A DNA stretch of 64,000 nt from Gammaproteobacteria bacterium (GCA_029862005.1 JAOTYD010000003.1:1-64000), one strand, 5' to 3'. Shown: positions 21,689-40,355, counted from the stretch's first letter. The notes: generated by a model from the letters alone, not told the origin. Translations and numbers: made by a program.

Positions 21689-21802
21689 ATCCCGGAAAGT
21701 GCGTCAGCACTTACCGCTGCGTCGGACCGCCGGGATCTCGCAAGAGCCTCCAGATACTAGCTATCGACTGGTTCGTGAAGACAGAACTTTCGGCAGCGTC
21801 AA

Positions 21803-22645
21803 TTAAATTTTATCGTTGATCACCAATTCGAGCGTTTTACTGAAATTTGAAGGAATCGAATTTGACAGCTGTTCGTAATCTCCTGACTGTCTCTCGGGAT
21901 TTCCGGATATTGATACCCTGGCCCCCACGATTACATTGTCGACACTGGATATTGTTCGGCCTGGTATCATTGCGTGACTGTCGTTTAGCGCGATGTCGAG
22001 AGGGAGTTCTGATACTTTCTTACGTAAAACTGCCAATGGAGGGCCGGGACTCTCAGCCGCGCGCGCAAAAACGAAGACCAGCGATTCGGGCGACAGTTTT
22101 TTTTGCAATGCGGGATTCAGTGATAATTTTAGTTGCAATCCAGCAGATTCTTCTGGGCCTGTCTGGCTGACTGCTTCCACAACCTGACTTTTTGCCAGAC
22201 TCTCGTCTGCATTGGTCTTGTAGTCACGAAAATTGATTGAGGAATCAAAATTCTGTATTGAAGAATTATTCCGACTGAAGGAATCAATTCGAGGAAGGGG
22301 CTGCCAACTGCCTGCATAACTCAGGGCTTTAGCTTTTTCGAATGCTGCCTCCGCTTCCTGCCATCGATTCAGGTGATAGTAGGATTTGGACAGCAACACC
22401 CAACCGTCGACATCGTCCGGCTGGCTTTCTAAGCGTTGCTTCAGGCCGACCAGCAATACCTCGACCGATGCCAGGCCAGCGTTTGAATCCTGGGTGCCAG
22501 GGGTAACAGCTTGGGGGGCCTTGAATTCGCGCATAGGGTCTCGTTCTACGGGATCAGAGAATTGGGTAATCACAAAATAGATTCCCACTCCAACCAGCGT
22601 CAGCACAACGAATATCGATATCTTAAACTTTGATAAAAGGATCAT
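21803..22645 (-). CDS. CcmI-like cytochrome c biogenesis protein (TPR plus C-terminal domain)
   Basis: A 280-residue protein with one N-terminal membrane helix (about residues 8-26), a TPR-like pair of helices (VDGWVLLSKSYYHLNRWQEAEAAFEKA, near 80-105), and a C-terminal domain with SLVFVFARAAESPGPPLAVLRK and SGNPERQSGDYEQL, the pattern of the C-terminal domain of CcmI/CycH. CcmI presents apocytochrome to the haem ligation machinery. This copy is shorter than usual, with a single membrane helix, and stands apart from any ccm operon. It follows the 36-heme gene on the same strand, so it may be dedicated to maturing the island's cytochromes; that is inference. A TTG at 22651 is an alternative start. 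Confidence 0.7.
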   Translation of the reverse strand: MILLSKFKISIFVVLTLVGVGIYFVITQFSDPVERDPMREFKAPQAVTPGTQDSNAGLASVEVLLVGLKQRLESQPDDVDGWVLLSKSYYHLNRWQEAEAAFEKAKALSYAGSWQPLPRIDSFSRNNSSIQNFDSSINFRDYKTNADESLAKSQVVEAVSQTGPEESAGLQLKLSLNPALQKKLSPESLVFVFARAAESPGPPLAVLRKKVSELPLDIALNDSHAMIPGRTISSVDNVIVGARVSISGNPERQSGDYEQLSNSIPSNFSKTLELVINDKI

Positions 22646-22783
22646 GTTCAATCGAATAATCTTGCTAATTGTTGGTAACAGGCTGTGGCGCGAAAATTTT
22701 AATCGTTCGTCTCGTATTTTATATGCAGCATTGAGGAATGAGGAAACCTCTGCGCCATTTGCGTTTGGTGGCAGGCAAATGCA

Positions 22784-25700
22784 CTAAAACTCGCTGTCGC
22801 TGACTCGATGACAGCCACTGCCACCGCAATTCTTGTTTTGCTCGACGGTGCCGCCCTTTCCACCGTTGTGAGCTCCTTCACTTTCGAAATCATTCGCGTG
22901 ACAGGCTGCGCAAAAGGGCGCGTACTGGGGCCAGGGATACGGAATCGTACTGCTTATGGGGCTACCGTGGCATACAGTACAGCCCAGGTTCCTTCTGTGG
23001 TCGCCCGGATAGTTCCCTTGCGGGTCGTGACTGAAACTGGTCGGCGCCCAGCCGTTGGTGGTATGGCAAACGTCGCACTGTACGGTTGTCGATAAATGAT
23101 CCGCTGGCTTGAAGGTCGCACCGCCGCCCGGACTATGACAGGTGTCGCAGTTACCGATACTACTGGCATCGTGTGTCCAGGTGCCGCCTACGAAGGTTGC
23201 CGTGGTGTGACAGAAGTAGCAGTCGAGACTGGTCGGAATATGCGCGGGCACGGCATCCATCATACCAGTCGCCGTAGTACCGTCGTGACATGAAACGCAA
23301 TTATTAATGATCCCGGTATGATCGAACGTTGCCGGAATAAAGCTACTGGGGGAGTGACAGACACCGCAGTCCTGATTGGTTGCAACATGGCCGACTTTTT
23401 TCGGCGTAGCGAAACCGGCATCGTGACAGGATGCGCAGTTATCCACGATACCCGCATGATCAAATGTCGCCGGCAAAAAGCCCGTGGTCTGGTGGCAATC
23501 GACGCAATCACCGTTGGTCGGCACATGGTCGTTGTCTTTGCCTGTGGCGGTAATGCCGTCATGACATGAACCGCAGTTATTCAGGATGCCCTGGTGGTCA
23601 AATGTGGCCTGGGCAAATGATGTGGGGGTATGGCACACCGAACAATCCTGGGTGATCGGAATGTGGGGTGGGTTAACCTTGGCATCGGTGCCGGTCGCAA
23701 TGACGCCATCGTGGCAAGACGCACAGTTGTCGACGATACCGGTATGATTGAACACCGCCGGCGCAAATGTGCCGCCGGGCACGTGACAGACTCTGCAATC
23801 CTCGGTTGTTACGACGTGGTTGACCTTGGCGTCCTTGCCGGTCGCATCGGTACCGTTGTGGCAGGAATCACAGCGCACTGCCAGCACGGCGGGATCGCTG
23901 TGGTCGACAAACGCGTCGGCAAAATTAGTCGTGTTATGACACAACGCGCAATCGGCAGAAGTTGCCGGATGCGGAGGAGTCGGTGTCTTTCCCCGGGCTC
24001 CAAGTGCGACAAAACCGGGGCTGCCATCGTGGCAGGAAGCGCAATTACCGGTAATGCCCTGGTGAGCCAGCATCGTGGTTGGCGTGAAGCCGTTGATGTT
24101 ATGACAAACGTCACAATCCTGGGCCGTCGGTAAATGGTTTGCATCCTTGACTAGATTGGCGACAGGATTGCTCGGCAAAGGCAAGAATTGGCTGGTATGG
24201 CAGCCTTCGCAGCCGCGGGTTATAGAATCGTGAACCGCAGTACGAAATGTTGCCGACGGCGAGAAATCTCCTTGATTAGTCGTATTAGCACTGTGGCACA
24301 CGACGCATGCTCCAAGTGCCGGGATATGATTCAGCTTTTTACCGATGGCCCCGGCCGCAACAAAGTCGGGATTGCCGCTGTGGCAGGATTCGCAATTGCC
24401 GGTGATGCCCGAGTGAACGAAGCCCTGTGCCGGCTTGAATGGAGCCGTGGTAGTGTGGCAAAAACTACAATCCTGGTTTGTCGGCAGATGGGAAGCCGGT
24501 TTTCCATAAAGCGTATTACCCGTTGTGCTGAAGTCACCGTTGTGGCACGACGTGCAGTCGTTGGGATTAATGCCGACATGGTCAAAGGTTGCGCCCGCAA
24601 AATCCGTGGTGGTGTGGCAATCGACGCAATCCTGGCTCGGGCCGAGCGGGGTGGGAAAGTGATTCAGGAGCATACCCACAGTGATCACATTGTCGTGGCA
24701 TGTCGCACAATTGTTAACCACACCGGCATGGTCATAGGTGCCGGTTGTAAAGGTACCCGGGGTATGACAGACCCTGCAATCCTCGATGGTTGGCATGTGG
24801 TTGGCGTGCATACCGCTTGCCGATCCGGACCCATCTGCAACATGGCAGGAATCACAGCGAGCCGCCAGAACGACAGGATCAGTATGATCGACCCCGAATG
24901 CGGGCGTGAAACTGTCGGTGTTATGACAATTAGCGCAGTCGGCACTGGTTACAGGGTGGGTGGGCACCGCGGACGACTTGGCGGGGGCGTTAATACCATT
25001 GGTTTCGTTATGGCACGATTCGCAGGACTGTAACGTGGCATCGACCACGCTGTGGTTGAAAATACCGCCCATACTGAAGCTCACGATGCCGTGGCAGGTA
25101 TCGCAATCGACAACAGTTACCGGATGGCCAATCGGTTGCCCCGTCGCCGAAACGCCATGACAGGAATCGCAGGTTATACCCGGACCGACCACGTCAGAGC
25201 CGGTGTGATCGGGGTAGGCGTCCAGGAAACTGGTGGTCGTATGGCAGTATCCACATTCGGAGCTGGTATCAGGGTGGGGAGGCGTGGGCGTCTTACCCCG
25301 GGACACGGTGCCGTTGTGGCAACCCGAGCATGATCTGGAAATACCCGTATGATCGAAGCTACCGTCCGCTGCTAGCGCCAGAAAACTCGTGGTATTGTGA
25401 CAGTCGTCGCATTCGGCGTTCGTCGGCGCATGAAATTCGGACTTGCCGACGGCCAGTATACCGTTATGACATCCGCTACAGTTTCCAAATACTTCCTGAT
25501 GATCAACGAATGGGGTGATATCAAATCCCGTGGGTGTATGACAGGTTTCGCAGTTATTGGTGGCAGCGACATGATTGCCTGATTTGGGCGGAATACCATT
25601 GACGCCATCGTCATGACAATTGACGCAGTTCGAAGACAGGCCTTGATGATTAAATGGACCCGTGGGTCTTTCCGGTGGAATTGTCGCCACGATCAGCTGA

Positions 25701-26098
25701 ATGGCACGCTCACTGGTAAGGGCTCCAGCACTAACCGCCAGCTGCACCCGGAATGAACCTCTGGTATCGGCAACAAAACTGGGATTGGCTGAAGTAGCGT
25801 TTTGCAACACGGCGTTACTGCCGTCGGGCCTCGAAGCAAAAGACCAGCGAAAGCTTAGTGGTTGAGACGATGTGGTAAATGAATTGTTGTCGCTTGGGTA
25901 GGCAGTCTCACCGACTCGCACGGCAAGGATAGGCCCCGTCCTGGCCACTATGTCGACAGTCTTGTCTACCGCGGTACTCTGCAGGGAGGCTCTTTCGTCC
26001 CCGCCTCCACCGCATCCAGCGGCAAGCAAAACCAGCATCAATGCGAGCAAATTGATGCTAGGCCTTATGTACCTCCTATGTGTCGGCGCGGTGTGCAT
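22784..26098 (-). CDS. Giant multiheme c-type cytochrome lipoprotein (36 CXXCH plus one CX4CH)
   Basis: A roughly 1,104-residue secreted cytochrome. From the ATG at 26098 the N-terminus is a lipoprotein signal ending LLAAGC, followed by a PKD/Ig-like beta domain (about residues 50-150, containing SFRWSFASRPDGSNAV) and then 36 CXXCH heme motifs plus a last CGGSGCH (CX4CH). Most hemes fall in a repeating two-heme unit of about 40-50 residues with the pattern FDH-x-GI-x2-NC-x-SCH-x-G-x-ATGK-x-H-x-PT-x2-DC-x2-CH. An upstream ATG at 26182 would put 28 residues in front of an otherwise normal lipoprotein signal, so I rejected it. Likely outer-membrane-anchored, possibly extracellular, electron carrier; cell location is inferred. 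Confidence 0.88.
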   Translation of the reverse strand: MHTAPTHRRYIRPSINLLALMLVLLAAGCGGGGDERASLQSTAVDKTVDIVARTGPILAVRVGETAYPSDNNSFTTSSQPLSFRWSFASRPDGSNAVLQNATSANPSFVADTRGSFRVQLAVSAGALTSERAIQLIVATIPPERPTGPFNHQGLSSNCVNCHDDGVNGIPPKSGNHVAATNNCETCHTPTGFDITPFVDHQEVFGNCSGCHNGILAVGKSEFHAPTNAECDDCHNTTSFLALAADGSFDHTGISRSCSGCHNGTVSRGKTPTPPHPDTSSECGYCHTTTSFLDAYPDHTGSDVVGPGITCDSCHGVSATGQPIGHPVTVVDCDTCHGIVSFSMGGIFNHSVVDATLQSCESCHNETNGINAPAKSSAVPTHPVTSADCANCHNTDSFTPAFGVDHTDPVVLAARCDSCHVADGSGSASGMHANHMPTIEDCRVCHTPGTFTTGTYDHAGVVNNCATCHDNVITVGMLLNHFPTPLGPSQDCVDCHTTTDFAGATFDHVGINPNDCTSCHNGDFSTTGNTLYGKPASHLPTNQDCSFCHTTTAPFKPAQGFVHSGITGNCESCHSGNPDFVAAGAIGKKLNHIPALGACVVCHSANTTNQGDFSPSATFRTAVHDSITRGCEGCHTSQFLPLPSNPVANLVKDANHLPTAQDCDVCHNINGFTPTTMLAHQGITGNCASCHDGSPGFVALGARGKTPTPPHPATSADCALCHNTTNFADAFVDHSDPAVLAVRCDSCHNGTDATGKDAKVNHVVTTEDCRVCHVPGGTFAPAVFNHTGIVDNCASCHDGVIATGTDAKVNPPHIPITQDCSVCHTPTSFAQATFDHQGILNNCGSCHDGITATGKDNDHVPTNGDCVDCHQTTGFLPATFDHAGIVDNCASCHDAGFATPKKVGHVATNQDCGVCHSPSSFIPATFDHTGIINNCVSCHDGTTATGMMDAVPAHIPTSLDCYFCHTTATFVGGTWTHDASSIGNCDTCHSPGGGATFKPADHLSTTVQCDVCHTTNGWAPTSFSHDPQGNYPGDHRRNLGCTVCHGSPISSTIPYPWPQYAPFCAACHANDFESEGAHNGGKGGTVEQNKNCGGSGCHRVSDSEF

Positions 26099-26441
26099 CT
26101 TAATCTTGTAAACAGTTACCGGTGTTGCTTCTGATAATGGAATCCATCGCTTTGCTAGTAGAATCCAGGGGAACCAATTCATATTTATTGGGAACTATAT
26201 CCCAAATTAAGTGAAATGATATGGGAATATTACGCAAAAGTAAGTGTTCAGCAGACCCAGAACAGTCTCATTTTAGTTAAAAAAACACTGCTCGCTGTAT
26301 ACCGTTGGTAACGGAAACTGTACGTTTGGTCTGAAATCAGGTGGTTTCTACCGATGATGGCATCCTGCTGGAATCGACGTATCCTGCTAGCTCCTCGCGG
26401 AATCAGGCATAGTAAATTAACCGCAGGCTAGCCTGTTTATA
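26099..26441. other. Promoter region of the 36-heme gene
   Basis: This 343-bp gap between two genes on the same strand carries the palindrome at 26188-26205 and a lone left half-site, TGGGAATATT, at 26222-26231. It suggests that the 36-heme gene has its own regulated promoter, separate from the operon of the beta-barrel gene. I see no coding frame or RNA gene here. Confidence 0.55.
26188..26205. promoter_or_regulatory. Island palindrome, copy 1 (GGGA-N6-TCCC)
   Basis: TTGGGAACTATATCCCAA, with 6-bp arms, lies 90 bp upstream of the 36-heme start. It shares its plan and length with the copies at 31846, 35296 and 35368, all in promoter regions of the island. Confidence 0.65.
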
Positions 26442-28469
26442 TCAGAAGAAATACGAATACCCAAGATACAGCGAATATGCGATCTGCTGGTCGAAATCGG
26501 GTAAGTCCAGGTCCGAATACTCGATGCCCAAATCGGCTTCAAAATCGAGGCTTTTTGCTGCCCGGTATCTGATTTTGATCGAAGGCATCAGAATATATTG
26601 ATCGATCCTGGTACGCTTGCTGCGACGGTGATCCAGTCGAATTCTCGGATCATAGATTAAACCCCCGTCACCCGGGAATCGGCTTCGCAGGCGAACCGAT
26701 TCGATGTCACTCGAGTCCAGATCAGACAAGCGCAGCCCGAAGGACGTAAAATCCCTGGCAGTGAAAAAGCCGCTGACAGAGTAGTCAAACGATAGCTCAA
26801 CATCCCTCGATGAGGGAATGGCATCCACGCCGCCGGAGGATTTTGCCGCATCGAGTTCAACAACAGAGAGGTCCATGTTTAACTGTCGGTTATTATCAAT
26901 AAAATAGCTGGCGCCGAAATACAGGGTATTGCTTTTGCTGCTCCGGTCTTCGGCCAGCTGGTAAATTTCATCCCGGGAAAACGTTTCGTCAAGCTCGTCG
27001 ATCGAGTCTGCGCCCTGTCCCTGCAGTGCATTCAGCGTGGACAATAGTGGTGAATTAAGGCGACCAAGCGTCAGGTTGAAAGTCCACCGCGGATCGTAGC
27101 GGTAGTTCGAGATAAAGGTGACATTGTTCAGTTCTTCATAGAAAACGTCGTAGTCGACAATGCCGTAAATAAATCCGACGTCATTCCGGAGCTGGAATTC
27201 GCTGCCGATCGCCTGTCGGTCTGTTAGATCCGAGACCTCCTGATTTACCAGGTACAGATTGATATCGACCCAATCGTACGGGCTAATATCCAGGTTGGCT
27301 CCCAGCAGGGGATTATCGGATTCGAGACCGTCATATGGGGACCGGACCAGGTTTCCCGCGAAGTAACTGGGTTGATAGGCCGTGCGCGACAAATCCCTGA
27401 AGGTGAACCCGTCAAAACGTCCGTAGACGCCGGTTACGGTGCGATACTGGCGCCCACCGATAATACTGAAACTGTCCCGCGTGTAGCTCAGGTTAGCCTG
27501 CGAAATCCGGCTGTCGTTTTCATCTTCGATAAAGTCATTGACCAGACTCGAATCGATCTGAATCGACCATGTGTCTGCATCCGTTCTGCGTTGAATCTGC
27601 AGGTTGACATCGGTAACCAGTGCCTGGTTGACTTCCTCGGAACTTTCTCCGGGCCGGTCAATGACATCATCCCGATAATATTGTTGCACTGCGCCGCGAA
27701 ATATCCAGTTGCCCTGGTCAGGATTCTTGTCCGGATTCGCCAATCGTTGTTTGGGATTGTCACCCATGGTGCGAATACCTTCCAGGCGATTCTGGACTCT
27801 TGCCGAGATTTCTGGCGGCGGACTGGTATCGAGCAAGGTTTCATATAGCACCACGGCCTCCGCGAATTTACGCTGGCGTTCGCGGGTGGTGCCGGCAAGC
27901 TCAAGGGCGGCACGTGCCTGTTCCAAATCTCCGCTTGATACGATTGCGTCGGTGATCGCAATGACCCGCGCATAGTTTTCATCCAAAAATGCCTGCCTGG
28001 CCTTTGACAGTAAAACATCATTCGTTTCGGGACTATTTTGTTCGGATTCAGTTTTCTGCTCGCTACCCACCTGTTTTAAAAAGGCGGTTAACTTTTGTTG
28101 CTCGGTCTTCGTTCGTAGATAAATCCTGGCACTCGAAAAATACGGCTTCAGTTTTTTTAGAGCCGCCCGGGCAATGTCGGCAGTTCTAAAATTTCCCAGT
28201 ACCAGTCGGTGAAAAAATTCCCCATTGACCTTAACCTTGGCCTGATAGACAAAGTAGTTCTGCAGGGTATTCCGGGTATTTTGTGGCAGGCCGTCAAAGG
28301 GCTGTCTGCTCGATGCTATGATGATTGCATGAGGTTGCACCTGCATTGGCTGGGGTGGGCTTAAGAACAGGTTTTCAATCGCAATAATTTCGTAACTGGC
28401 TGCCGAAACATCGGATACACAAGCGAACCAGGGGATTGCCAGAATGATAGCGACGAAGGCTTTTTTCAT
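26442..28469 (-). CDS. Outer-membrane beta-barrel protein with SPOR-like and TPR-like N-terminal region
   Basis: A 675-residue exported protein. A signal peptide (residues 1-24, ending VSA) is followed by a SPOR-like segment (FFHRLVLGNFRTADIARAAL, near 86-105), a helical TPR-like part (about 150-225), and from about 250 to the end alternating aromatic and polar beta strands that finish in YLGYSYFF, the terminal aromatic expected of barrels inserted by Bam. I do not see the CXXCH or CXXC motifs of MtrB-type porins. Lying among multiheme cytochromes, it is a candidate for the porin sheath of an electron conduit. It is not recognisably MtrB or PioB. It lies 57 bp after the 9-heme gene on the same strand. 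Confidence 0.75.
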   Translation of the reverse strand: MKKAFVAIILAIPWFACVSDVSAASYEIIAIENLFLSPPQPMQVQPHAIIIASSRQPFDGLPQNTRNTLQNYFVYQAKVKVNGEFFHRLVLGNFRTADIARAALKKLKPYFSSARIYLRTKTEQQKLTAFLKQVGSEQKTESEQNSPETNDVLLSKARQAFLDENYARVIAITDAIVSSGDLEQARAALELAGTTRERQRKFAEAVVLYETLLDTSPPPEISARVQNRLEGIRTMGDNPKQRLANPDKNPDQGNWIFRGAVQQYYRDDVIDRPGESSEEVNQALVTDVNLQIQRRTDADTWSIQIDSSLVNDFIEDENDSRISQANLSYTRDSFSIIGGRQYRTVTGVYGRFDGFTFRDLSRTAYQPSYFAGNLVRSPYDGLESDNPLLGANLDISPYDWVDINLYLVNQEVSDLTDRQAIGSEFQLRNDVGFIYGIVDYDVFYEELNNVTFISNYRYDPRWTFNLTLGRLNSPLLSTLNALQGQGADSIDELDETFSRDEIYQLAEDRSSKSNTLYFGASYFIDNNRQLNMDLSVVELDAAKSSGGVDAIPSSRDVELSFDYSVSGFFTARDFTSFGLRLSDLDSSDIESVRLRSRFPGDGGLIYDPRIRLDHRRSKRTRIDQYILMPSIKIRYRAAKSLDFEADLGIEYSDLDLPDFDQQIAYSLYLGYSYFF

Positions 28470-28526
28470 CCTTTTACTGCGTCCTTTATTTTTAATTTTC
28501 GATCCCGATACATGAGACAGGCTCGA

Positions 28527-29303
28527 CTAGGGTGGCGTTGCTGGAGTCCAGCCCAGGACACTGTGACAAGCCTCGCAGTCATTTCCCGAAGGAATATGCA
28601 TCGGATCCTTGCCCTCGGCGATGACGCCATTGTGACAACTGAAGCAGGTTCCGATTACCGAACCGTGGTCAACCCGGATTACCGGTATCCAGTCCCGGGT
28701 ATTGTGACAATCCTCGCAACTCGCCGTAGACGGGATGTGGCCGGGATTTTTACCTTCAGCAAATCCGCCGTTATGACAACTGACACAATTGCTGGTGGTG
28801 TCGATATGATAAAATTTCCAGCTCAGTGTAATGTGGCAGGCATCGCAGATATTACTGCTCGGTACATGTCCCGGATTCTTGCCCTCGGCGGTAACCCCAT
28901 TGTGGCAGCTCGCACAGCTACCGCGGACCGCGGCGTGATCGACCCTGATAATGTTGGTCCATAAAGTGGGCGTGTGACAATAGTCGCAATCACCGGTGAC
29001 CCGTATATGCTGGCTGGACGGAGCGCTGGCCTTTATTCGCCCCGAGTCGGAATGGCAACTGGCACATTGCCTCGGGGTGCCGACGAAAATCCCGTCTACG
29101 TGGCAGGACTCACAGCTAATCAGGGCATGTTTGAAATCCAGCGGAAAACTGGTCTCGTCATGATTAAAATCCGACCCGAGGTCAAGCGCAGCCGTATTGC
29201 TTGCATAGCAACCAGCTAACACAAAGAAAATGATTAAAGCCGCACCGAACTTAATAGAAAGTTGAGCGGGAACCCATGAAGATACTTGAATGGCCATATT
29301 CAT
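28527..29303 (-). CDS. Nine-heme c-type cytochrome lipoprotein
   Basis: A 258-residue lipoprotein (lipobox FVLAGC near residue 32) with nine CXXCH motifs. The repeat unit NGVTAEGKNPGHVPSSNICDACH is the same two-heme plan as in the 36-heme protein, suggesting that both arose by unit duplication from one ancestor. It overlaps the 21-heme gene by 4 bp. Possible role: an electron carrier between the periplasmic 21-heme protein and the outer-membrane part; that is inference from order and lipid anchor. Confidence 0.87.
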   Translation of the reverse strand: MNMAIQVSSWVPAQLSIKFGAALIIFFVLAGCYASNTAALDLGSDFNHDETSFPLDFKHALISCESCHVDGIFVGTPRQCASCHSDSGRIKASAPSSQHIRVTGDCDYCHTPTLWTNIIRVDHAAVRGSCASCHNGVTAEGKNPGHVPSSNICDACHITLSWKFYHIDTTSNCVSCHNGGFAEGKNPGHIPSTASCEDCHNTRDWIPVIRVDHGSVIGTCFSCHNGVIAEGKDPMHIPSGNDCEACHSVLGWTPATPP

Positions 29304-30916: not shown

Positions 30917-31731
30917 TAGAGATGCACAACGAGAACATGGATTGTTCCGGACAGGACCAGCATGACTAAAAGTGGGATATGGAAAACGTGCCAGTAAGAG
31001 AACAGGATTTCGTTAATTCCAAGTACGCAGATCAAGTGCAGATCCTTCAATCTGCGATAAACCTGTTTTTTCTCGGCGGGTTCCAGTGCACAACGAGCAA
31101 CTTCGCGACGCAAGCGGCCGATACGCGATTTCATACTGCGGTAGAATCCCAGTGATCGATTTATACCCGTATGCTGATGGGTTAAACTGGTTTCGAGCTC
31201 ATTAAATTCGTGCGCAATATGAGCGTCAATGGCGGTTGACCTACCTTTCAACAAACCCGATAAATCATCACCCGAGTAGAACTCTTCGAAGCGGATTTTA
31301 CGGCCATACAAGCCGTGGTGAATGCGCTGATACCAATAACGACCCAGCAAACCGCTAGTGGCAACGATCAGCATGCAGAACAATGCCACGCTGCTGTTAA
31401 ATGAACCGAGCTTGAAGCCAGAGTGAAAAAGAATAATTACCGGACCGACCAGGCCCAATATCATATGAATCCTGAACCAGAACTTGACGGAACCTATTGA
31501 TGCCCAGCTTTTGAAACGTTTTCGCAGGGGGTAGGCAAAAATGAGCAACATCATCGACCCCCCGATGATTCCGAACCAGTATCCGATCCCAGATTCTGCA
31601 ACCAGGTAATTCTGGTCGCGGGCAGCCCAGCCCGCAGCGATCAGCAAGGCGATCGCTGAATACCAGATGATCGAGGTCATGCTGAGCAAATAGGAAGTGA
31701 ACTTGTTCGACAAAAATCTATCCTGTCTCAA
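30913..31731 (-). CDS. Diheme-b-type inner membrane protein
   Basis: A 272-residue membrane protein with helices near 15-35, 48-68, 86-106, 113-130 and 246-270 and a charged cytoplasmic-like loop between 130 and 245. Two helices each carry a pair of histidines spaced 13 residues apart: His89/His103 and His251/His265. That is the bis-histidine plan for two stacked b hemes in cytochrome b and ferric-reductase-type proteins. It heads the operon with the 21-heme cytochrome and is divergent from the Fe-S flavoprotein, so electrons probably pass from that protein or from quinol through it to the periplasm. No family name is certain. Confidence 0.72.
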   Translation of the reverse strand: MRQDRFLSNKFTSYLLSMTSIIWYSAIALLIAAGWAARDQNYLVAESGIGYWFGIIGGSMMLLIFAYPLRKRFKSWASIGSVKFWFRIHMILGLVGPVIILFHSGFKLGSFNSSVALFCMLIVATSGLLGRYWYQRIHHGLYGRKIRFEEFYSGDDLSGLLKGRSTAIDAHIAHEFNELETSLTHQHTGINRSLGFYRSMKSRIGRLRREVARCALEPAEKKQVYRRLKDLHLICVLGINEILFSYWHVFHIPLLVMLVLSGTIHVLVVHLY

Positions 31732-31845
31732 CTATGCTTGAGTTGTTCCCTGGGGTCACTGCAATCCATTCGATTCGAACTTTCCCGGCGCCTGTCGAGC
31801 CCCTTAACGGGAAATAAAATATAGCAGAAAATACGAAATATTTAT

Positions 31846-31859
31846 GGGAAAAAATTCCC
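31846..31859. promoter_or_regulatory. Island palindrome, copy 2 (GGGAA-N4-TTCCC)
   Basis: GGGAAAAAATTCCC is a perfect 14-bp palindrome in the 177-bp divergent promoter region between the cytochrome b-type gene and the Fe-S flavoprotein gene. It is 50 bp from the rightward start and 115 bp from the leftward one, well placed to control both. Confidence 0.65.
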
Positions 31860-31908
31860 TATTTAAGGTAAATTTAACGAGTTTTAATCGGAAACGCAAT
31901 TAAATCGC

Positions 31909-33219
31909 ATGACAACGCTGCAATACTGGTTATCCCTGTTGCCCCCACTGTTAATCCTGTTGACCTACTTGGCCTGGTACCGTCGACGCGAGCGAATCAA
32001 CAGCCAGACTCGCCTGCAGGCTATTGAATCGGGACTTTCCGAGCCGGCTTCATTGCACCCGCTCATCGATCGCAACAAATGCATCGGTTGCAAATCATGT
32101 GTTTTTGCGTGCCCGCAACAGCTCGGACATGATGTGCTCGGAATTTTCCATGGCAAAGCCGAACTGCTGGAGCCGGCCAACTGTATCGGGCACGGCGCCT
32201 GCAAGACGGTCTGCCCGGTGGGTGCGATCAATTTGGTGTTCGGTAGCGAAAAACGGGGTGTTGATATCCCGCAGGTTGACGATCATTTTGAAACCAACAT
32301 ACCGGGAATCTATATCGCCGGAGAGCTGGGAGGTATGGGCTTGATTCGAAATGGTATCGAGCAGGGCAAAACTGCGATGCTGTCACTTGCAAAAGATTTA
32401 CCCAGCTCAAGCAGTAATGCACATCAGGTCGTTATTGTCGGTGCAGGCCCCGCGGGATTCGCCGCAACCCTGAAGGCTAAGGAACTCGGTTTGAATTACC
32501 TGACGCTGGATCAGGAATCACTGGGCGGTACGGTATACAAGTATCCTCGCGGGAAGATTGTCATGACGCACCCGGTCGACTTACCGATCGCGGGCAAAAT
32601 GCACTTCAAGGAGACTACCAAGGAAGAGCTGCTGGAATTCTGGCAGGGTGTAAAGAAAAATACCGGGATCAGAATAAATTACCAGGAACTGGTTTCCAAT
32701 ATCACGACCCGGGACGCTGGTTTTGAGCTGAAAACCAGCCGTGGCCAGTACACCGCGGATAAGGTATTGCTCGCAATCGGCAGGCGCGGCACACCCCGTA
32801 AACTGGGAGTTCCGGGTGAAGATCATCCCAAGGTTGTTTACTCGCTGATCGATCCCGAGCAGTACCTGGGAAAAAAAGTATTGGTCGTCGGTGGTGGCGA
32901 CAGTGCACTCGAGGCCGCGTTATCGATTGTTGATGCCGGTGGAGCCGATGTTTCAATTTCATATCGCAGCGATGCTTTCTCTCGAGCCAAGGCAAAAAAC
33001 CGGGAGCGCGTCGATAACTATGCCGCTGCGTCGAAAGTCAAGCTCTACTTATCATCGAACCTGATCAATATTTCCCCCCACGAGGTGGTTCTCGAGCACA
33101 AGGGACAGGCTATTCAGCTTGAAAACGATGCAATTATTATCAATGCCGGCGGTATCTTACCCACCGGCTTTCTCAAGGATATCGGTATATCTGTTGAGAC
33201 AAAATACGGCACAGCTTGA
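31909..33219 (+). CDS. Membrane-anchored Fe-S flavoprotein, NAD(P)-linked oxidoreductase
   Basis: A 436-residue protein with one N-terminal membrane helix (about 5-24), a two-cluster ferredoxin domain (C58, C61, C64, C68 and C92, His95, C98, C102), a segment like the C-terminal FAD motif of disulfide oxidoreductases (ETNIPGIYIAGELGGMG, near 128-145), then the FAD Rossmann motif VVIVGAGPAGFAA (about 175) and the NAD(P) motif VLVVGGGDSALEAA. The CXXC redox pair of thioredoxin reductase is missing. Likely moves electrons between NAD(P)H and the neighbouring membrane cytochrome at the inner face. The domain order looks circularly permuted. Confidence 0.82.
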   Translation: MTTLQYWLSLLPPLLILLTYLAWYRRRERINSQTRLQAIESGLSEPASLHPLIDRNKCIGCKSCVFACPQQLGHDVLGIFHGKAELLEPANCIGHGACKTVCPVGAINLVFGSEKRGVDIPQVDDHFETNIPGIYIAGELGGMGLIRNGIEQGKTAMLSLAKDLPSSSSNAHQVVIVGAGPAGFAATLKAKELGLNYLTLDQESLGGTVYKYPRGKIVMTHPVDLPIAGKMHFKETTKEELLEFWQGVKKNTGIRINYQELVSNITTRDAGFELKTSRGQYTADKVLLAIGRRGTPRKLGVPGEDHPKVVYSLIDPEQYLGKKVLVVGGGDSALEAALSIVDAGGADVSISYRSDAFSRAKAKNRERVDNYAAASKVKLYLSSNLINISPHEVVLEHKGQAIQLENDAIIINAGGILPTGFLKDIGISVETKYGTA

Positions 33220-33238
33220 GATAATTAAGGTCACTCGA

Positions 33239-35233
33239 ATGAAAATAGTCCTGCTGATCCTGACCCTCGTGCTAACTTCGGCTCCCGCCCTTGGCAAACT
33301 GGATCAATCACTAGAAGAAATCGAAAAACTGATTCGATTGCGTGATTATTCGCAGGCGGTTAGTCGCCTACAGATCATGGCAGAAAAAGGTGATCCCGAA
33401 GCGCAATACCGACTGGCGGGACTGTATCGAGCCGGTAAAGGTGTGAGCAAAGATCTGGATAAAGCAACCGACCTGTACCATGAGTCGGCACAGGGCGGTC
33501 ATGCGGACGCCCAGTATGCAATAGCGTTAATCATCGAGAAGTCCAACGACTCAGCTGCCTCACGAAATGAAGCGCGGAGATGGTATAAAAAATCTGCAGC
33601 CCAGGGTAACCAGCGCGCTTCAATCAAGCTCGAGCAGTTTCAGCAAGCCCCGCAGGTAACGCCGCGGCGAATTAACCGGAAAGACCTCTTTAACGCAATT
33701 CAACATAACGATGAAGCCCTGATAAATTCCCTCATTTCGAATGATGTGGATTTGAATTTGACTGACCGACAGGGTAACTCGACGGTAATGGCAGCATTAC
33801 TCGCTGGATGGCCGCGATTAGCCGGCACATTAATCCCCAAAACGCAGCATCTCGGGCAGGCCAATATATATGGAGATAGTCCGTTGCACGTCGCTTCCAG
33901 TCGAGGATACAAAGGCATCGTTAAAGCCTTGCTCGATAGTAACGTGGGTATCGATCAAACCGACTACCGGGGCGATACGGCGCTAATGCTGGCGCTGAAA
34001 AACAGGCATGCCGAGATAGCTGAACTGTTATTGGAGCGAGGCGCAGATTACGAACTTACCAACAAGAAGAATCGCTCGGCAGTTGATTTTGCCTTTGCCG
34101 ATGATAATCCAGCCAGCAAGGCCTTATTCGCGCAGTTTGGTATTAAGCCAAAGGTCGTTACCAGGAAAAAAGCGCCGAATAGCCTCGAAACATTTAAATC
34201 GTCGGTCGACAAATATGGGGCGCGTTATGCCGGCTGGCCCTTGCTCAATATTGCGATCGAGCTTGGTGACGATTCAATTTCTAATCAATTAATTGCGCGA
34301 AAACCTGACCTGAACGCAGCCGATCCTGACGGCAATAGTGCCTTGCACGTCGCAGCCCGCAAGGGTGATTCCGTAACCTTGAAACAGCTCATCAGAAACG
34401 GTGTGAGTAAAAACGGGCTGAACCGCAGAAAGGAAACCGCCCTGTACCTGTCGGTCGAATCCGCCTGTCTGAAATGCGTAAGACTGCTGCTAGGTTATAA
34501 GGCCGATCCATCGATCGCGACAAAATTCGAGGTTACGCCACTTGAAGCCGCTATCCGGAATAACCAGGCAAAAATCGCACAGGCGCTGTTGCAAAATAAA
34601 TCCAATTACCCGGGTATTCATCGAGTGCTGTTACTTGCGATTCAGAAGAAAATGGAGAACCTGAGCAGCGTGTTGATTAAACGCGATAAGCATCTCGACT
34701 CTGTCGACGAAAAGAAACGGTCGGCGCTATGGCACAGCGCTGACCAGGGGCTTGAAAAGACCACGGCGTTACTGATTGCATCGGGTGAAATAGACGTTAA
34801 TCGCAAGGACATCAACGGACACAGTGCACTTGCGCAGGCGGTGATACACGGTCATTTCAAACTAGTGCGGCTGTTGATCGAGCACGGCGCTGACCCGACC
34901 ACGCGCACGCAAGAGGGCAATACGCTGGTAATGCTGGCCGTGCTATCGCAGAGTCCCGAAATCGTCGAGTTTTTACTGAATCGCGGTATCGAAATGGGTG
35001 TTCGGGATATCGACCTCAATGCGCGGGATAATGTCGGAGAAACCGCGTTGATGATGGCCGCGGCTACTGCCCAGGATCAAGTCATTGAGGTGCTATTGCA
35101 TGCCGGAGCCGATCCACAGCTGCGTAACAATGAGGACTTGAATGCATTTCAAATAGCGACTAATGCCGGACATCGCGATACCGCCCGGTTCATCCACGAT
35201 AAAAGCAATTTCGTTTTCAAATTGTTTAATTGA
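33239..35233 (+). CDS. Secreted Sel1-repeat and ankyrin-repeat protein
   Basis: A 664-residue exported protein. I chose the ATG at 33239, which gives the signal peptide MKIVLLILTLVLTSAPALG; the frame is open upstream but overlaps the flavoprotein gene. Residues 30-130 contain Sel1-like repeats (DPEAQYRLAGLYRAGKGV, HADAQYAIALII), and from about 145 to the end at least ten ankyrin repeats (GDSPLHVASSRGYKGIVKALL, GETALMMAAATAQDQVIEVLL). A binding scaffold in the periplasm is likely; the partner is unknown. It lies 19 bp after the flavoprotein gene, probably in the same transcript. Confidence 0.85.
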   Translation: MKIVLLILTLVLTSAPALGKLDQSLEEIEKLIRLRDYSQAVSRLQIMAEKGDPEAQYRLAGLYRAGKGVSKDLDKATDLYHESAQGGHADAQYAIALIIEKSNDSAASRNEARRWYKKSAAQGNQRASIKLEQFQQAPQVTPRRINRKDLFNAIQHNDEALINSLISNDVDLNLTDRQGNSTVMAALLAGWPRLAGTLIPKTQHLGQANIYGDSPLHVASSRGYKGIVKALLDSNVGIDQTDYRGDTALMLALKNRHAEIAELLLERGADYELTNKKNRSAVDFAFADDNPASKALFAQFGIKPKVVTRKKAPNSLETFKSSVDKYGARYAGWPLLNIAIELGDDSISNQLIARKPDLNAADPDGNSALHVAARKGDSVTLKQLIRNGVSKNGLNRRKETALYLSVESACLKCVRLLLGYKADPSIATKFEVTPLEAAIRNNQAKIAQALLQNKSNYPGIHRVLLLAIQKKMENLSSVLIKRDKHLDSVDEKKRSALWHSADQGLEKTTALLIASGEIDVNRKDINGHSALAQAVIHGHFKLVRLLIEHGADPTTRTQEGNTLVMLAVLSQSPEIVEFLLNRGIEMGVRDIDLNARDNVGETALMMAAATAQDQVIEVLLHAGADPQLRNNEDLNAFQIATNAGHRDTARFIHDKSNFVFKLFN

Positions 35234-35295
35234 ATTCTGAAATCGAGCGCCTAACTCCGGCGGCAGTAAAAATTTCTTGCTTTTTATACTAATTT

Positions 35296-35309
35296 GGGAA
35301 TATAATCCC
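35296..35309. promoter_or_regulatory. Island palindrome, copy 3 (GGGAATATAATCCC)
   Basis: The core matches copy 4 exactly and is extended by flanking ATTT and AAAT to perfect 8-bp arms (35292-35313). It lies 86 bp upstream of the DUF5666 start and 72 bp centre to centre from copy 4. Confidence 0.75.
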
Positions 35310-35367
35310 AAATTATATAAGTACTCAGTCACAATGTCTGGGTTTTTTAAAGATTTTTATAACAAAT

Positions 35368-35381
35368 GGGAATATAATCCC
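35368..35381. promoter_or_regulatory. Island palindrome, copy 4, next to the ribosome binding site
   Basis: An identical 14-mer to copy 3, ending 13 bp before the ATG at 35395, immediately ahead of the AGAGG ribosome binding site. Bound protein here could block transcription, or the RNA hairpin could affect translation. Confidence 0.75.
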
Positions 35382-35394
35382 AAGAGGTTTTAAA

Positions 35395-36825
35395 ATGAAA
35401 ATTTTACCAACAAAATACTTTACCGGTGTTTCAGCGCTCGTAGCAACAGTTCTGCTAGTTGGCGGTTGCGGTGGGTCATCCTCGAGTGGTGACGGGGATG
35501 CCGACAGTACGGTTGTTAGCCGTGGTTTGATAACCGGATTCGGAAGCGTTTACGTTAACGGCATCCGTTTCCATACGGGTAGTGCGCGATTTTCTATTGA
35601 TGATGACAGCGGTGTAGAGTCCGACCTGAGAGTCGGTATGATCGTGACGGTAAAAGGCACTAGGAATGATAGCTTTAATGGTCACGCAACACATATTGTT
35701 TATGACAATGAATTGAAGGGGCCTGTGTCCAGTATTTCCTACGATACACCTAATCCTGTCGATGCAGCCTTGGCAACAATGACCATTCTTGGACAAACTG
35801 TAATAGCCAATCGTGATACAACAATCGACAACGACCATGGCCTGACCTTTGACAATATTCAGGTCGGTGATGTACTCGAAGTCAGCGGATTCATCAGCGA
35901 TTCGGGTTTGCTCGCAACGCATATCGAAAAACAGGATGACGCATCAGAAATCGAAATCAAAGGATATATCGATAACGGCAGCCTGACTTCCAATAGCTTT
36001 ACCATCAACGGATTCCCCGTGAGTTACGATGGCACTACCCAACTCGATGATATCAGCGCGCTCGCGGAAGGCCTTTTTGTCGAGGTGGAAGGTCGGTTGG
36101 ATGGACTGGGAACTACCTTGATCGCCGAAGAGATTGAAGCTGAACACGAAGGCCTCGATGATGATACGGATGAGGCCGAAGTAGAAGGCGCCATATCTGA
36201 CTATAACCCCCTGAACGATACCTTCATGATTCAGGGCCAGTTAGTTGATGCCACTGGTGCCGAGCTGTATCCCTCTACGCTGGTTTTAGCGGACGGTTTG
36301 ATCGTGGAAGCCGAGGGTCATATTGTGAATGGTATCCTGCAGGCAGATGAAGTCGAACAGAAAGGCAAGAAGATTAAGATTTATGCGACCTTATCGGCGG
36401 TAGGTTCGGATTCAGTAAGTTTTAAATTTAACTTGACTGACATTGTTGCCCGGGTCAATCACCAGACCGAACTGGAAGACGATATAAATGATACTGATAT
36501 TGTATTATCGCAGCTGTCGCCGGGTGATTTCGTCGAGATGGAAGCATTCGATGATGGCAGCGGGATCATTAATGCCGTCGAAATCGAACGTAAAACACCC
36601 GATGAAATACGTATTGTTGCCCCGGTAGAGGGGTGGGATGATAGCGCCGAAACCGTGATGTTGCTCGGGGTAGTGTTCGACCTCAGCGCGGCAGTTTACG
36701 AAAATGACTTCGACCAGAATATACCGGCCGACACATTTTATAACTCGCTTAGTCCGGGAAGGTTCGTCAAGATCAAGGATACCGATAGTAACGGCATCTT
36801 CGATAAAGCGGAACTGGATGACTAG
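35395..36825 (+). CDS. DUF5666 lipoprotein A
   Basis: A 476-residue lipoprotein (lipobox LLVGGC, then a glycine/serine linker) made of about six beta-rich repeats of 65-75 residues. Repeat signatures are TGFGSVYVNGIRF, VGDVLEVSGF and LFVEVEGRL, matching the DUF5666 family, for which I know no established function. It is strongly acidic. It is a paralogue of the protein at 37680-39194 and lies on the other side of the HTH-like gene. The upstream region carries two copies of the island palindrome. Confidence 0.8.
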   Translation: MKILPTKYFTGVSALVATVLLVGGCGGSSSSGDGDADSTVVSRGLITGFGSVYVNGIRFHTGSARFSIDDDSGVESDLRVGMIVTVKGTRNDSFNGHATHIVYDNELKGPVSSISYDTPNPVDAALATMTILGQTVIANRDTTIDNDHGLTFDNIQVGDVLEVSGFISDSGLLATHIEKQDDASEIEIKGYIDNGSLTSNSFTINGFPVSYDGTTQLDDISALAEGLFVEVEGRLDGLGTTLIAEEIEAEHEGLDDDTDEAEVEGAISDYNPLNDTFMIQGQLVDATGAELYPSTLVLADGLIVEAEGHIVNGILQADEVEQKGKKIKIYATLSAVGSDSVSFKFNLTDIVARVNHQTELEDDINDTDIVLSQLSPGDFVEMEAFDDGSGIINAVEIERKTPDEIRIVAPVEGWDDSAETVMLLGVVFDLSAAVYENDFDQNIPADTFYNSLSPGRFVKIKDTDSNGIFDKAELDD

Positions 36826-36882
36826 TTAACTCGAAGCCCGTGTGTTGAAATTGCAGCACACGGGTTTCGTCGATTTGAAGAT

Positions 36883-37683
36883 ATGCAAGAAATACTGCGC
36901 AATACACTGAGAAAAATTCTGATGGCTCTGGTACGCACACTGTTACGCAACGGCATGGCTTACGGAGAGTTCGACCAGATTGCACGCAAGGCCTTTGTTG
37001 ACGTTGCCTATCGTGATTTTACGCCCAGCGGCAAGAAACAGACCGTGTCAAACGTGGCGATCCTGACCGGATTAAATCGCAAGGAAGTCAAGAAACTATC
37101 TGAACTTGATCTGGGGCAATCCCCGGGTGACGACAAGCAATACAATCGGGTGGTGCGAGTGCTGGGAGGCTGGATTAACGATCCTCGCTTTTTACGCAAG
37201 GATGGTAATCCGCGCGACCTGGAGCACGAAGGCGAGAATTCGTTTAGCGAACTGGTCAAGCTCTATAGTGGCGATATGCCGGTAGCGGCGATGCAAAAGG
37301 TTTTACTCAATTCGGCCAATATCAAGTTTACCGACGATAACAAGGTGCGCTTGCTCAGCCATGCCTACCTGCCGTCGGATGATCCGGTCGAAAAACTGGC
37401 GATTCTCGGCACCGATGCGAGCCAGCTGGTGGACACCATCGATTTCAATCTAACCGCCCCGGAAGAGGCGCTGCGTTTTCAGCGCAAGGCTTCGAATCCA
37501 AAGGTGGCGCCAGAATCGATACCGGAAATCAAGCAATTTTTAAGACGCAAAGGACAGGCCTTCCTCGAGGAAATCGATTTATACCTGTCTCAGCATGAAA
37601 CTGAAGATGACTCGAGCGCCGAAGTCAGTGTCAGCGTGTTTTACCACGAGTCGAAAGATGAAGATCGGGACGTTGAAAAATGA
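36883..37683 (+). CDS. Putative DNA-binding protein, DUF6502-like
   Basis: A 266-residue cytoplasmic protein without signal peptide or membrane helix. The N-terminal 80 residues contain FDQIARKAFVDVAYRDF followed by TVSNVAILTGLNRKEVKKL, which reads like a helix-turn-helix with its recognition helix. The rest is helical and charged. I recall such proteins as DUF6502, often beside DUF5666 genes, but this assignment is from memory of the pattern. It lies between two DUF5666 genes and overlaps the second by 4 bp. It is the only plausible DNA-binding protein in the island, so it is the leading candidate for the regulator of the palindromes. Confidence 0.6.
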   Translation: MQEILRNTLRKILMALVRTLLRNGMAYGEFDQIARKAFVDVAYRDFTPSGKKQTVSNVAILTGLNRKEVKKLSELDLGQSPGDDKQYNRVVRVLGGWINDPRFLRKDGNPRDLEHEGENSFSELVKLYSGDMPVAAMQKVLLNSANIKFTDDNKVRLLSHAYLPSDDPVEKLAILGTDASQLVDTIDFNLTAPEEALRFQRKASNPKVAPESIPEIKQFLRRKGQAFLEEIDLYLSQHETEDDSSAEVSVSVFYHESKDEDRDVEK

Positions 37684-39194
37684 TTAATAGCCAATGGAAT
37701 CCCGTTAAAGCGGCCACACTAATTTGCCTGTTAGCGGGCAGCCTTATGCTGAACGGCTGCGGTGGCAGCAGTGGCGGCTCGGACACAAGCGCCGGCATCG
37801 GCGGCACCGGCATTGCAGTCGGTAAGATAACCGATTTCGGCAGTGTTTATGTCAACGGCAACATTTTCAATACTAATCAGAGCCAGTTCATCGTCGATGG
37901 CAATTCATCCGCAAGCGAAAATGATCTGTCTATTGGTATGGTGGTAATTGTCAAGGCCGAGACCAATAACGGTCTGTTCACCGGTAATGCGCTCGAAGTC
38001 TTTTACGACGACGAAGTCGAAGGGCCTGTCACGAGTGTCACGCCTGATCCGATGGACGCGAATTTAAAAACCATCACAGTATTCGGCCAGACCATTACCC
38101 TCGATGATACAAGTACATTGTTTAAAGACAGGTCCGTTACTCCCGATCCCAATTACGGCTTTGCTACGATTGCTGTCAATGATGTAATTGAAGTCAGCGG
38201 ATTTCGCGTTTCACCGACCGAAATCACAGCAACTTATGTCGAGAAGACCGATGATCTGAATCCAGGAGCAAGCGAGGTCGAATTGCGCGGCACCGTCAGT
38301 CAGTTCTCGGCGATGAACCAGAATTTCATGCTCGATGGCGTGCAGATTACTTTCGACATGAACACCCAAATCGAAGTTACCGGCAGTCTGGTAGATGGTC
38401 TTTTTGTCGAAGTCGAGGGAATTTACTTCGATAATCCATCCGTATTTGTACACGCCGAGGAAATTGAGGAAGAGGAAGAGGGCTTCGGCGATGATGTTGA
38501 CGATGTAAGCCTGCAGGGAATCATTAGTAACTTTATGGGAGGTCCCCAAACCTTTGAAATCGATGGTCAGATGATCGACTTCAGCGGTGCGCAAATCGAG
38601 CCCACCGGTGCGATGCTTGGCGATGGTCTGGAAGTTGAAGTCGAGGGCGACATCGTCGCCGGTGTTTTAATCGCCGAGGAAGTCGAAGTCCGGGAAGGCG
38701 AGGCTAAACTCGAGGCTTTTGTGAGTTCTGTTAATCTGGCAAATAACAGTTTTGAGGTTAGCTACTTTGGTGGGCTCGGAACGGTAACGGTCCTTGTCGA
38801 CACCCAGACTATCTTCGAAGACGAGAAGGGAGCTATGCCACTTGAGGATTTAGAGCTTAGTGGCCTTACTCCCCTTGTTGATTTCGTCAAGCTCGAAGGT
38901 AAAGAGATGGTCAATGATGAAGTCGTCGCGAGTACGATCAAAAGAATCGATGATGATGATTATAAGCTCCAGGGTGCGGTTGACGGTTGGATCCCGATAG
39001 GCACATCAGCTTCGATCACGGTCCTGGGTATCATTTTTCCAGTGGATACAACCCCGATAACCGGCACGGAATTCGAAGGCTACGCGAACGCGGCAGAATT
39101 TTTTACTGCGCTCGCTGCGGCAGTCGATCCTGAAGTAGAAATCGAAGACGATATTCCCGCCGATGGTGTCGCCGACAAAGTTGAATTCGAATAG
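37680..39194 (+). CDS. DUF5666 lipoprotein B
   Basis: A 504-residue acidic lipoprotein (lipobox LMLNGC, then GGSSGGSD) with the same beta-repeat plan as lipoprotein A: TDFGSVYVNGNIF, VNDVIEVSGFRV, LFVEVEGIYF. Overlap with the DUF6502-like gene indicates one operon. The gene ends 6 bp before the convergent protease gene stops, so the island abuts the backbone here. Function unknown; a role in envelope or extracellular assembly is possible but unproven. Confidence 0.8.
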   Translation: MINSQWNPVKAATLICLLAGSLMLNGCGGSSGGSDTSAGIGGTGIAVGKITDFGSVYVNGNIFNTNQSQFIVDGNSSASENDLSIGMVVIVKAETNNGLFTGNALEVFYDDEVEGPVTSVTPDPMDANLKTITVFGQTITLDDTSTLFKDRSVTPDPNYGFATIAVNDVIEVSGFRVSPTEITATYVEKTDDLNPGASEVELRGTVSQFSAMNQNFMLDGVQITFDMNTQIEVTGSLVDGLFVEVEGIYFDNPSVFVHAEEIEEEEEGFGDDVDDVSLQGIISNFMGGPQTFEIDGQMIDFSGAQIEPTGAMLGDGLEVEVEGDIVAGVLIAEEVEVREGEAKLEAFVSSVNLANNSFEVSYFGGLGTVTVLVDTQTIFEDEKGAMPLEDLELSGLTPLVDFVKLEGKEMVNDEVVASTIKRIDDDDYKLQGAVDGWIPIGTSASITVLGIIFPVDTTPITGTEFEGYANAAEFFTALAAAVDPEVEIEDDIPADGVADKVEFE

Positions 39195-39200
39195 TCCGGA

Positions 39201-40355
39201 TTACAGTTGCGGGCGTTGGATGACCTTCATGTCGAGGTTTAATTTTTCCGGGCCACGATAGATTGTGACTTTTATCTGCTCGCCGGGTTGGTACGGCGTT
39301 ATCTGGTTAAGCAAATCGCGGATCCCGAGCACCGGTTTGCCCTCGACTTCAACTACTATATCGCCGGCCCTGATGCCGGCCATGTCGGCGGGGCTATTGA
39401 TAAATACGCCGACGATTAATGCGCCCTTGATGTCCGGGTCGCCGGTGGCCATCGCCGCACTGGTGGTTACTTCGGTGCCTTCAACCCCGAGCCAGCCGCG
39501 CGTCACTTTTCCGAACTTGATGATTTGTCGCATGATGTCGAGCGCCAGCGATATGGGTATTGCGAAGCCGATACCCTGTGCACCGACGGACTGACTGAAA
39601 ATTGCCGTATTGATGCCGATCAGCTCGCCGCGCGCGTTGATCAGCGCACCCCCCGAATTGCCGGGATTAATTGCAGCATCGGTCTGGATAAAGTTCTCGA
39701 AGGTATTGAGCCCGATGCGATTACGCCCGGTCGCGCTGACGATACCCATGGTCACAGTCTGACCGACGTTGAGCGGATTTCCAATCGCCAGCACGACATC
39801 GCCGACGCGGATGGCTCGTTCGTCTGCGATCTTGATCCCGGCCAGGTCGGTGATCGGGATCTGTAAAATGGCGATGTCGGTCTCCCGGTCCTCGCCGATC
39901 AGAACGGCCTGGCTGCCGCGTCCGTCGGCCAGGGAAATCAGGATTTCATCGGCACCGTCAATAACGTGCTGATTAGTGAGAATGTAGCCGTCGGCACCAA
40001 TGATGACGCCAGAACCCAGGTTGGTTTCACTGCGGCTGCGTTGGCGCCGTTTTAGTTGATCGCTAAAGAACTGGCTGAATATCGGATCCTCGAGCAATGG
40101 ATGCGGTTTTTCGGTAACCGTTTTCATTGTATAAATCGTGACTACCGAAGCGCTCGAAGATGCGACTGCATCCGCGTAGGAAAACACCCCTTTACCGTTA
40201 CCTGGTAGTGGCTGTACCTGCTCCTGTGACGATGACAGGAATGCCAGGATTTCGTCTTTATCCTTGTCACTTACGGTAATCAGGTAGATGGTCGCAAGTG
40301 CCAGTCCGATTAATCCGAATTGAAATAAGAAGCCGACGGCTTTGATTAGTTTCAT
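39201..40355 (-). CDS. degS: DegS/AlgW-type periplasmic serine protease
   Basis: A 384-residue membrane-anchored HtrA protease with an N-terminal helix (about 8-27), a trypsin-like domain with the catalytic triad His130 (LTNQHVIDGAD), Asp160 (ETDIAILQI) and Ser234 (NPGNSGGAL), and one PDZ domain (about 285-375, containing GIRAGDIVVEVEGKPV). One PDZ and the membrane anchor fit DegS/AlgW, which start the cleavage of anti-sigma factor RseA/MucA under envelope stress. Position upstream of Nif3-like and petABC matches Pseudomonas algW. Confidence 0.92.
   Translation of the reverse strand: MKLIKAVGFLFQFGLIGLALATIYLITVSDKDKDEILAFLSSSQEQVQPLPGNGKGVFSYADAVASSSASVVTIYTMKTVTEKPHPLLEDPIFSQFFSDQLKRRQRSRSETNLGSGVIIGADGYILTNQHVIDGADEILISLADGRGSQAVLIGEDRETDIAILQIPITDLAGIKIADERAIRVGDVVLAIGNPLNVGQTVTMGIVSATGRNRIGLNTFENFIQTDAAINPGNSGGALINARGELIGINTAIFSQSVGAQGIGFAIPISLALDIMRQIIKFGKVTRGWLGVEGTEVTTSAAMATGDPDIKGALIVGVFINSPADMAGIRAGDIVVEVEGKPVLGIRDLLNQITPYQPGEQIKVTIYRGPEKLNLDMKVIQRPQL

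Follow-up and report, generated by a model that had tools for sequence, protein, structure and literature searches.

A PCC3-type porin-cytochrome cluster and its flavoprotein partner in the hisD-degS gap of a gammaproteobacterial genome

Gene content of the hisD-degS gap

The window, i.e. the whole stretch of 64,000 nucleotides analysed here, lies on contig C3 of a gammaproteobacterial genome of 3.99 Mb that is 97% complete. ORF and domain inspection of the gap bounded by hisD (20373-21668) and degS (39201-40355) found solely the genes listed in an earlier, sequence-only reading of this DNA. The minus-strand genes come first and encode, in this order, a CcmI-like protein, a 37-motif cytochrome, a barrel protein, the 9-heme and 21-heme cytochromes and a membrane protein; on the plus strand follow those for the flavoprotein, the Sel1/ankyrin protein and the three members of the DUF5666-DUF6502-DUF5666 block. 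That reading's count of 66 CXXCH motifs (36+9+21) plus one CX4CH for the gap is exact, and its ORFs and coordinates also agree with ours. In the 64-kb window the CXXCH DNA pattern has 72 matches, compared with 4.65 expected from shuffles. The features are as follows.

21803-22651, minus strand: CcmI/CycH-like apocytochrome chaperone paralog with TM, TPR and Ig_CycH domain (PF23892, E=1.5e-30)
22784-26182, minus strand: MHC1, predicted extracellular multiheme lipoprotein with 36 CXXCH and one CX4CH (Cytochrome_C7, E=2.6e-47)
26188-26205: candidate operator TTGGGAACTATATCCCAA upstream of MHC1, an exact TTGGGA-N6-TCCCAA
26442-28469, minus strand: PCC3 porin, with a 22-strand beta-barrel following an N-terminal SPOR domain and TPR helices
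28527-29303, minus strand: MHC2, 9-heme lipoprotein (9 CXXCH; lipobox LAGC)
29300-30916, minus strand: MHC3, 21-heme periplasmic cytochrome (21 CXXCH; cleavable signal peptide)
30913-31731, minus strand: PCC3 inner-membrane protein (IMP) of 272 aa, with five TM helices and the published PCC3 motifs
31732-31908: promoter region between the divergently transcribed IMP and flavoprotein genes, holding the degenerate operator ATGGGAAAAAATTCCCTA
31909-33219, plus strand: flavoprotein with an N-terminal TM helix, two Fe-S sites, and FAD and NAD(P) Rossmann domains of YpdA/TrxR/FNR type
33236-35233, plus strand: secreted Sel1 and ankyrin-repeat protein (ank) by domain matches, a conserved neighbour of the flavoprotein
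35294-35383: operator copies TTGGGAATATAATCCCAA (35294-35311) and ATGGGAATATAATCCCAA (35366-35383) before the DUF5666/DUF6502 operon
35395-36825, plus strand: DUF5666 lipoprotein (PF18914, E=2.9e-42), outside PCC3 proper and, in G002 and others, found in the absence of PCC3
36883-37683, plus strand: DUF6502 protein (PF20112, E=2.1e-50)
37680-39194, plus strand: another DUF5666-like lipoprotein belonging to this block and resembling the first

As defined by He et al. 2017, PCC3 comprises a porin, an extracellular MHC (median 34 hemes), a periplasmic MHC (median 21) and an IMP of about 300 aa with five TM helices, SGXXG on TM4 and WX3HX13H on TM3 and TM5, and its cytochromes have an amino acid to heme ratio of 22-39 (PMC5566968). 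The cluster encodes a porin that forms a large outer-membrane beta-barrel in the model, a many-heme MHC with 37 motifs and a lipobox, whose surface location is predicted from sequence, a periplasmic MHC with 21 CXXCH and a signal peptide, and a 272-aa IMP with five hydrophobic peaks and all three motifs. Heme counts of 36 and 21 compare with the PCC3 medians of 34 and 21, and the three cytochromes have 30.6, 28.7 and 25.6 amino acids per heme, inside the range of 22-39. Judged by all its testable defining features, the core of the cluster is a PCC3, an already described kind and not a new system. The sequence-only reading had seen here a module linking cytoplasmic NAD(P)H or the quinone pool to the outer surface, or the reverse; the module is the PCC3 of He et al. 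2017.

The two PCC3 clusters of Sideroxydans ES-1 (Slit_0867-0870 and Slit_1446-1449) have the same porin, extracellular MHC, 21-heme periplasmic MHC and 5-TM IMP. In contrast to published PCC3, the present cluster has in addition a 9-heme second surface cytochrome, a CcmI paralog, and divergent flavoprotein and Sel1/ankyrin genes. MtrCAB and MtoAB resemble it in function, as a cytochrome wire through a barrel, but this type was rejected, as no MtrA/DmsE-family decaheme cytochrome of the genome scores above the cut-off of TIGR03508. The MtrB barrel has 26 strands, compared with 22 in the porin here. PCC4 shares a porin and an IMP with the same helix motifs, but all three of its MHCs (4, 5 and 10 hemes) are periplasmic, none is extracellular, and its IMP is of another family (PMC5566968); with 37, 9 and 21 hemes and two lipoproteins, the present cluster is not a PCC4.

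The AlphaFold2 model of the porin (mean pLDDT 89) has 22 strands between residues 255 and 674 and matches outer-membrane porins in Foldseek (best E=3e-11). Among 32 porin homologs (alignment A5), SPOR is found in 21 and TPR in up to 20; these N-termini suggest attachment to peptidoglycan, perhaps at septa. For MHC1, the lipobox reads LLAAGC, the CX4CH motif at the C-terminus is CGGSGCH, and the ATG at 26098 is a likelier start. MHC2 is a probable second outer-surface cytochrome, to judge from its sequence. The three cytochromes have 40, 9 and 26 free histidines, enough for bis-His ligation in each. In the IMP, the motifs are W85-x3-H89-x13-H103 (helix 3), SGLLG at 126-130 (helix 4) and W247-x3-H251-x13-H265 (helix 5). 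Both His pairs are invariant across 17 homologs, and the protein is predicted to be a di-heme cytochrome b; comparison of its sequence with solved structures gave no useful match.

Elsewhere in the genome, at C6:86051, a 404-aa frame encodes a second CcmI. On the gene maps, the CcmI paralog adjoins MHC1 in G023, G013, G018 and G006, and at the hisD locus it was seen only together with the large MHC1. Genome G005 (locus L072) carries PCC3 at hisD with neither MHC1 nor the CcmI paralog, and this joint absence suggests that the paralog serves the 36-heme protein.

The flavoprotein and the electron path

The flavoprotein contains one CxxCxxCxxxCP [4Fe-4S] site and a second site, CxxHxxCxxxCP, which is invariant in 19 sequences. 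Its FAD and NAD(P) folds have YpdA and TrxR/FNR enzymes as closest solved structures, and it shares these two domains with YpdA/Bdr, TrxR and TrxR-type ferredoxin-NADP reductases; it differs from them in having, at its N-terminus, a TM anchor and a ferredoxin part in which one site is of the type CxxHxxC. The FAD motif is GAGPAG, and Bdr uses a redox-active cysteine at that position. The sequence has no CxxC apart from the 4Fe-4S motif and so lacks the redox-active cysteine(s) of YpdA/TrxR disulfide reductases. Since the redox CxxC is missing while the folds are nearest to YpdA and FNR, we infer a role in electron transfer rather than in disulfide chemistry.

One set of 276 Gammaproteobacteria genomes was searched with both a flavoprotein profile (A1) and an IMP profile (A2), and strong matches were counted; two more weak IMP matches (E about 1e-21) were left out. 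Each protein was found in 32 genomes, and 31 genomes have both (Fisher P=1e-38). Copy numbers track each other in G076, G131 and G308, and wherever a genome has two IMPs it also has two flavoproteins. For 30 of the 34 IMP copies a flavoprotein lies on the same contig within 11 kb, mostly at 0.1-1.8 kb and divergent; contig ends explain at least some of the four remaining copies. Genome G215 has the IMP and no flavoprotein. Conversely, among 80 flavoprotein loci, the IMP is present in 66 and the IMP with multiheme cytochromes in 61, many of the others stopping at contig edges. The Sel1/ankyrin protein is found in 60 of them. A cytochrome with exactly 21 hemes occurs in 44 of the 80, some of which are cut at contig ends, and MHC3 is the constant part of the wire. 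According to the record titles, these loci come from Gamma-, Beta-type (Gallionella, Rhodocyclales), Alpha- and Deltaproteobacteria, Nitrospirae and Nitrospinaceae. The proposal of a linked electron-transfer module was thus borne out, with the same genes kept together at unrelated loci in many families. In one locus, L102 of the single-contig genome G074, which also has a 66-heme cytochrome, the flavoprotein frame is broken by a stop or frameshift.

The main texts of the PCC3 papers describe four genes only, the flavoprotein not among them, and their supplements might mention it. The distribution of the flavoprotein and the Sel1/ankyrin protein indicates that they are likely general PCC3 partners overlooked so far. 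Most simply, the flavoprotein would be the port through which electrons enter or leave the di-heme b IMP on the cytoplasmic side, and the NAD(P) domain makes coupling to NAD(P)H plausible. NAD(P)H would reduce the FAD of the inner-membrane-tethered flavoprotein, which may dock on the IMP and would pass electrons through its two Fe-S sites to the two predicted b hemes. From there, the electrons would charge the 21-heme periplasmic wire (MHC3), cross the outer membrane through the 22-strand porin, kept near peptidoglycan by its SPOR domain, and reach the 9-heme and 36-heme surface lipoproteins and finally an external acceptor. NAD(P)H-driven export is our best guess for the direction of flow.

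The literature treats PCC3 mainly as a candidate Fe(II) oxidase that would feed quinones (PMC5566968, PMC10734462, PMC12442390). In such an inward conduit, which is the model of He et al. (PMC5566968), electrons from an external donor (Fe(II), minerals, cells or a cathode) would pass via the IMP to quinones, and the flavoprotein would be a side branch for pyridine nucleotide or redox sensing. The presence of PCC3 in many Gallionellaceae Fe(II) oxidisers (PMC10734462) and the increase of one PCC3 IMP in Fe-oxidising Sideroxydans CL21 (PMC12442390) are consistent with this direction. However, transcripts of both PCC3 clusters of Sideroxydans ES-1 fall on Fe(II) (PMC8788666), a quinone site was not found, and a near-obligate NAD(P)H-type flavoprotein would be superfluous. 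We regard inward flow as possible but rather unlikely. Extracellular electron transfer activity has been demonstrated for no PCC3 in the PCC3 papers.

History of the hisD/degS site

Gene maps of related genomes show three states of the site. In G026, G032, G015, G031 and G033, hisD directly adjoins degS; the family members G026, G032 and G015 have the uninterrupted order hisD-degS-nif3-petAB(C)-sspA, with small differences in G031 and G033. A second group, G002, G003, G004, G014 and G024, has the DUF block alone between hisD and degS. The third state, with PCC3 separating hisD from the DUF block, is seen in G000, G023 and G005 and also, spread over two contigs, in G013, G018 and G006. The sequence-only reading had claimed an insertion into a conserved gene order. 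Interruption-free relatives do exist and the genes are not scattered, but the nearest empty sites are at least partly secondary. Genome G030, which is without the module, retains the 3' end of ank at the site (the last ~80 codons, with 73% protein identity over 79 residues to G009). Because this C-terminal coding end is still in place, the empty site of G030 is, by its sequence, a deletion scar, and it was ruled out as a pre-insertion state. In G004, a truncated DUF5666 follows straight after hisD, consistent with deletion, and in G002 a trace of only ~12 nt is suggestive. The contig of G020, the nearest relative by HisD, stops at hisD, and this genome has no flavoprotein match.

The PCC3 copies at hisD are monophyletic (100/100) and nested in a family clade (100/100) whose remaining members lie elsewhere. 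On the HisD tree, where the basal branches of the 14-genome clade are weakly resolved, the island state requires five changes; owing to this poor resolution, transfer between close relatives is possible. Since the copies at hisD form one clade and G030 bears a scar, a single acquisition of PCC3 followed by several deletions fits best.

The DUF5666-DUF6502-DUF5666 block is separate and probably occupied the gap earlier. The earlier view of the 17-kb span as one unit does not hold: the electron-transfer island is 21803-35233, and 35395-39194 occupies the same site, with no cytochrome gene there, in relatives. Insertion of the whole 17 kb as one mobile island, DUF5666/DUF6502 included, would account for the position of all genes between hisD and degS, for an operator common to MHC1 and the DUF5666/DUF6502 operon, and for DUF6502 lying close to PCC3 in G073, G125, G103 and G165. 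However, the DUF block also occupies the hisD/degS site in G011, G012 and G024, none of which belongs to the clade that carries PCC3 at hisD; G024 has its PCC3 at another place. The locus shows no tRNA, no flanking direct repeat and no marked GC shift. A single 17-kb island is improbable and was rejected on synteny, although the DUF block and PCC3 could once have belonged together, those lines having lost PCC3 later.

Two minor observations concern the same site. A REP-like sequence at 21687-21740 (starting TCATCCCGGAAAGTGCGTCAGCACTTACC) lies 3' of the hisD terminator hairpin, and similar copies are found at the site in G002 and G030. In G034, another member of the family (L077, 1120-5819), three unrelated ORFs of 627, 282 and 543 aa fill the hisD/degS gap, and the site seems variable.

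DUF6502, a candidate operator and the overall reading

The exact palindrome TTGGGA-N6-TCCCAA has two copies in 3.99 Mb, one before MHC1 and one before the DUF5666/DUF6502 operon, which has an additional near copy upstream. The copies before DUF5666 overlap a TATAAT box. Three further sites with at most one mismatch, outside the locus, look like chance. The shorter form TGGGA-N6-TCCCA (≤1 mismatch) was found in 8 of 31 PCC3 promoter regions, compared with 0.28 expected from composition-keeping shuffles. All palindrome-bearing promoters are in DUF6502-positive genomes (8/20 vs 0/11, two-sided P=0.028, shared ancestry uncontrolled). DUF6502 itself is present in 21 of 32 PCC3 genomes compared with 57 of 244 others (P=3e-6, again with shared ancestry uncontrolled). 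Among 20 PCC3-free genomes, 10 have the palindrome (≤1 mismatch) 21-112 bp before the DUF6502 gene, where 0.02 is expected. The loci covered for palindromes before DUF6502 and PCC3 genes were L217, L220, L222, L224 and L226-L245.

Because the palindrome precedes DUF6502 genes in PCC3-free genomes as well, DUF6502 is probably a transcription regulator. We infer that it may bind the candidate operator, repress or activate its own gene, and have been recruited to PCC3. The protein has a conserved S-x5-TG-x2-R stretch on helices 55-62/66-74, and a helix-turn-helix is predicted; since the fold search gave nothing significant (best E 0.14, with weak IclR-type matches), this prediction draws on the sequence and on model helices. 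No mention of DUF6502 was found in the literature searched. A CRP-family regulator would be a rival or additional binder at PCC3 promoters, as CRP/Vfr-like TGTGA-N6-TCACA (≤1 mismatch) is found in 13 of the 31 regions (L186-L216) compared with 0.34 expected. Some of the CRP-type sites are hybrids with the TGGGA motif.

Taken together, we slightly favour the reading that the PCC3 porin-cytochrome conduit at 21803-35233 was acquired at the hisD/degS gap a single time, by an ancestor of the present species group, and would carry electrons from NAD(P)H to an external acceptor. By analogy with NOX/FRE proteins, and only tentatively, PCC3 may be viewed as an NAD(P)H-driven transmembrane exporter, rather than as a four-gene conduit linked to quinones, in which the flavoprotein, with its unusual second Fe-S site that contains a His, feeds the di-heme b protein, which charges the 21-heme wire, here under the control of DUF6502 as an undescribed regulator class binding TTGGGA-N6-TCCCAA. 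That the cytochromes serve electron storage, as considered for PCC3 (PMC10734462) and in line with the very high heme numbers, or heme-dependent stress protection is very improbable, since the porin, lipoprotein cytochromes and IMP form a trans-envelope path linked at many loci.

The PCC3 core was known; new here are the flavoprotein partner, the regulatory link, the separate DUF block and the repeated loss at hisD. PCC3 is widespread, and its near-obligate NAD(P)H-type flavoprotein partner offers a concrete and testable answer on where electrons enter or leave in the cytoplasm; it also cautions against using PCC3 genes as plain markers of Fe(II) oxidation. The deletion scar means that a close relative can be empty through loss, and the trait therefore turns over within a genus. 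The candidate operator offers a first handle on regulation, as well as a predicted function for DUF6502. Downstream in the window, 48584-53385 and 53671-55491 resemble, by eye alone, a PrkA kinase-YeaH-SpoVR set and an aldehyde ferredoxin oxidoreductase, respectively.
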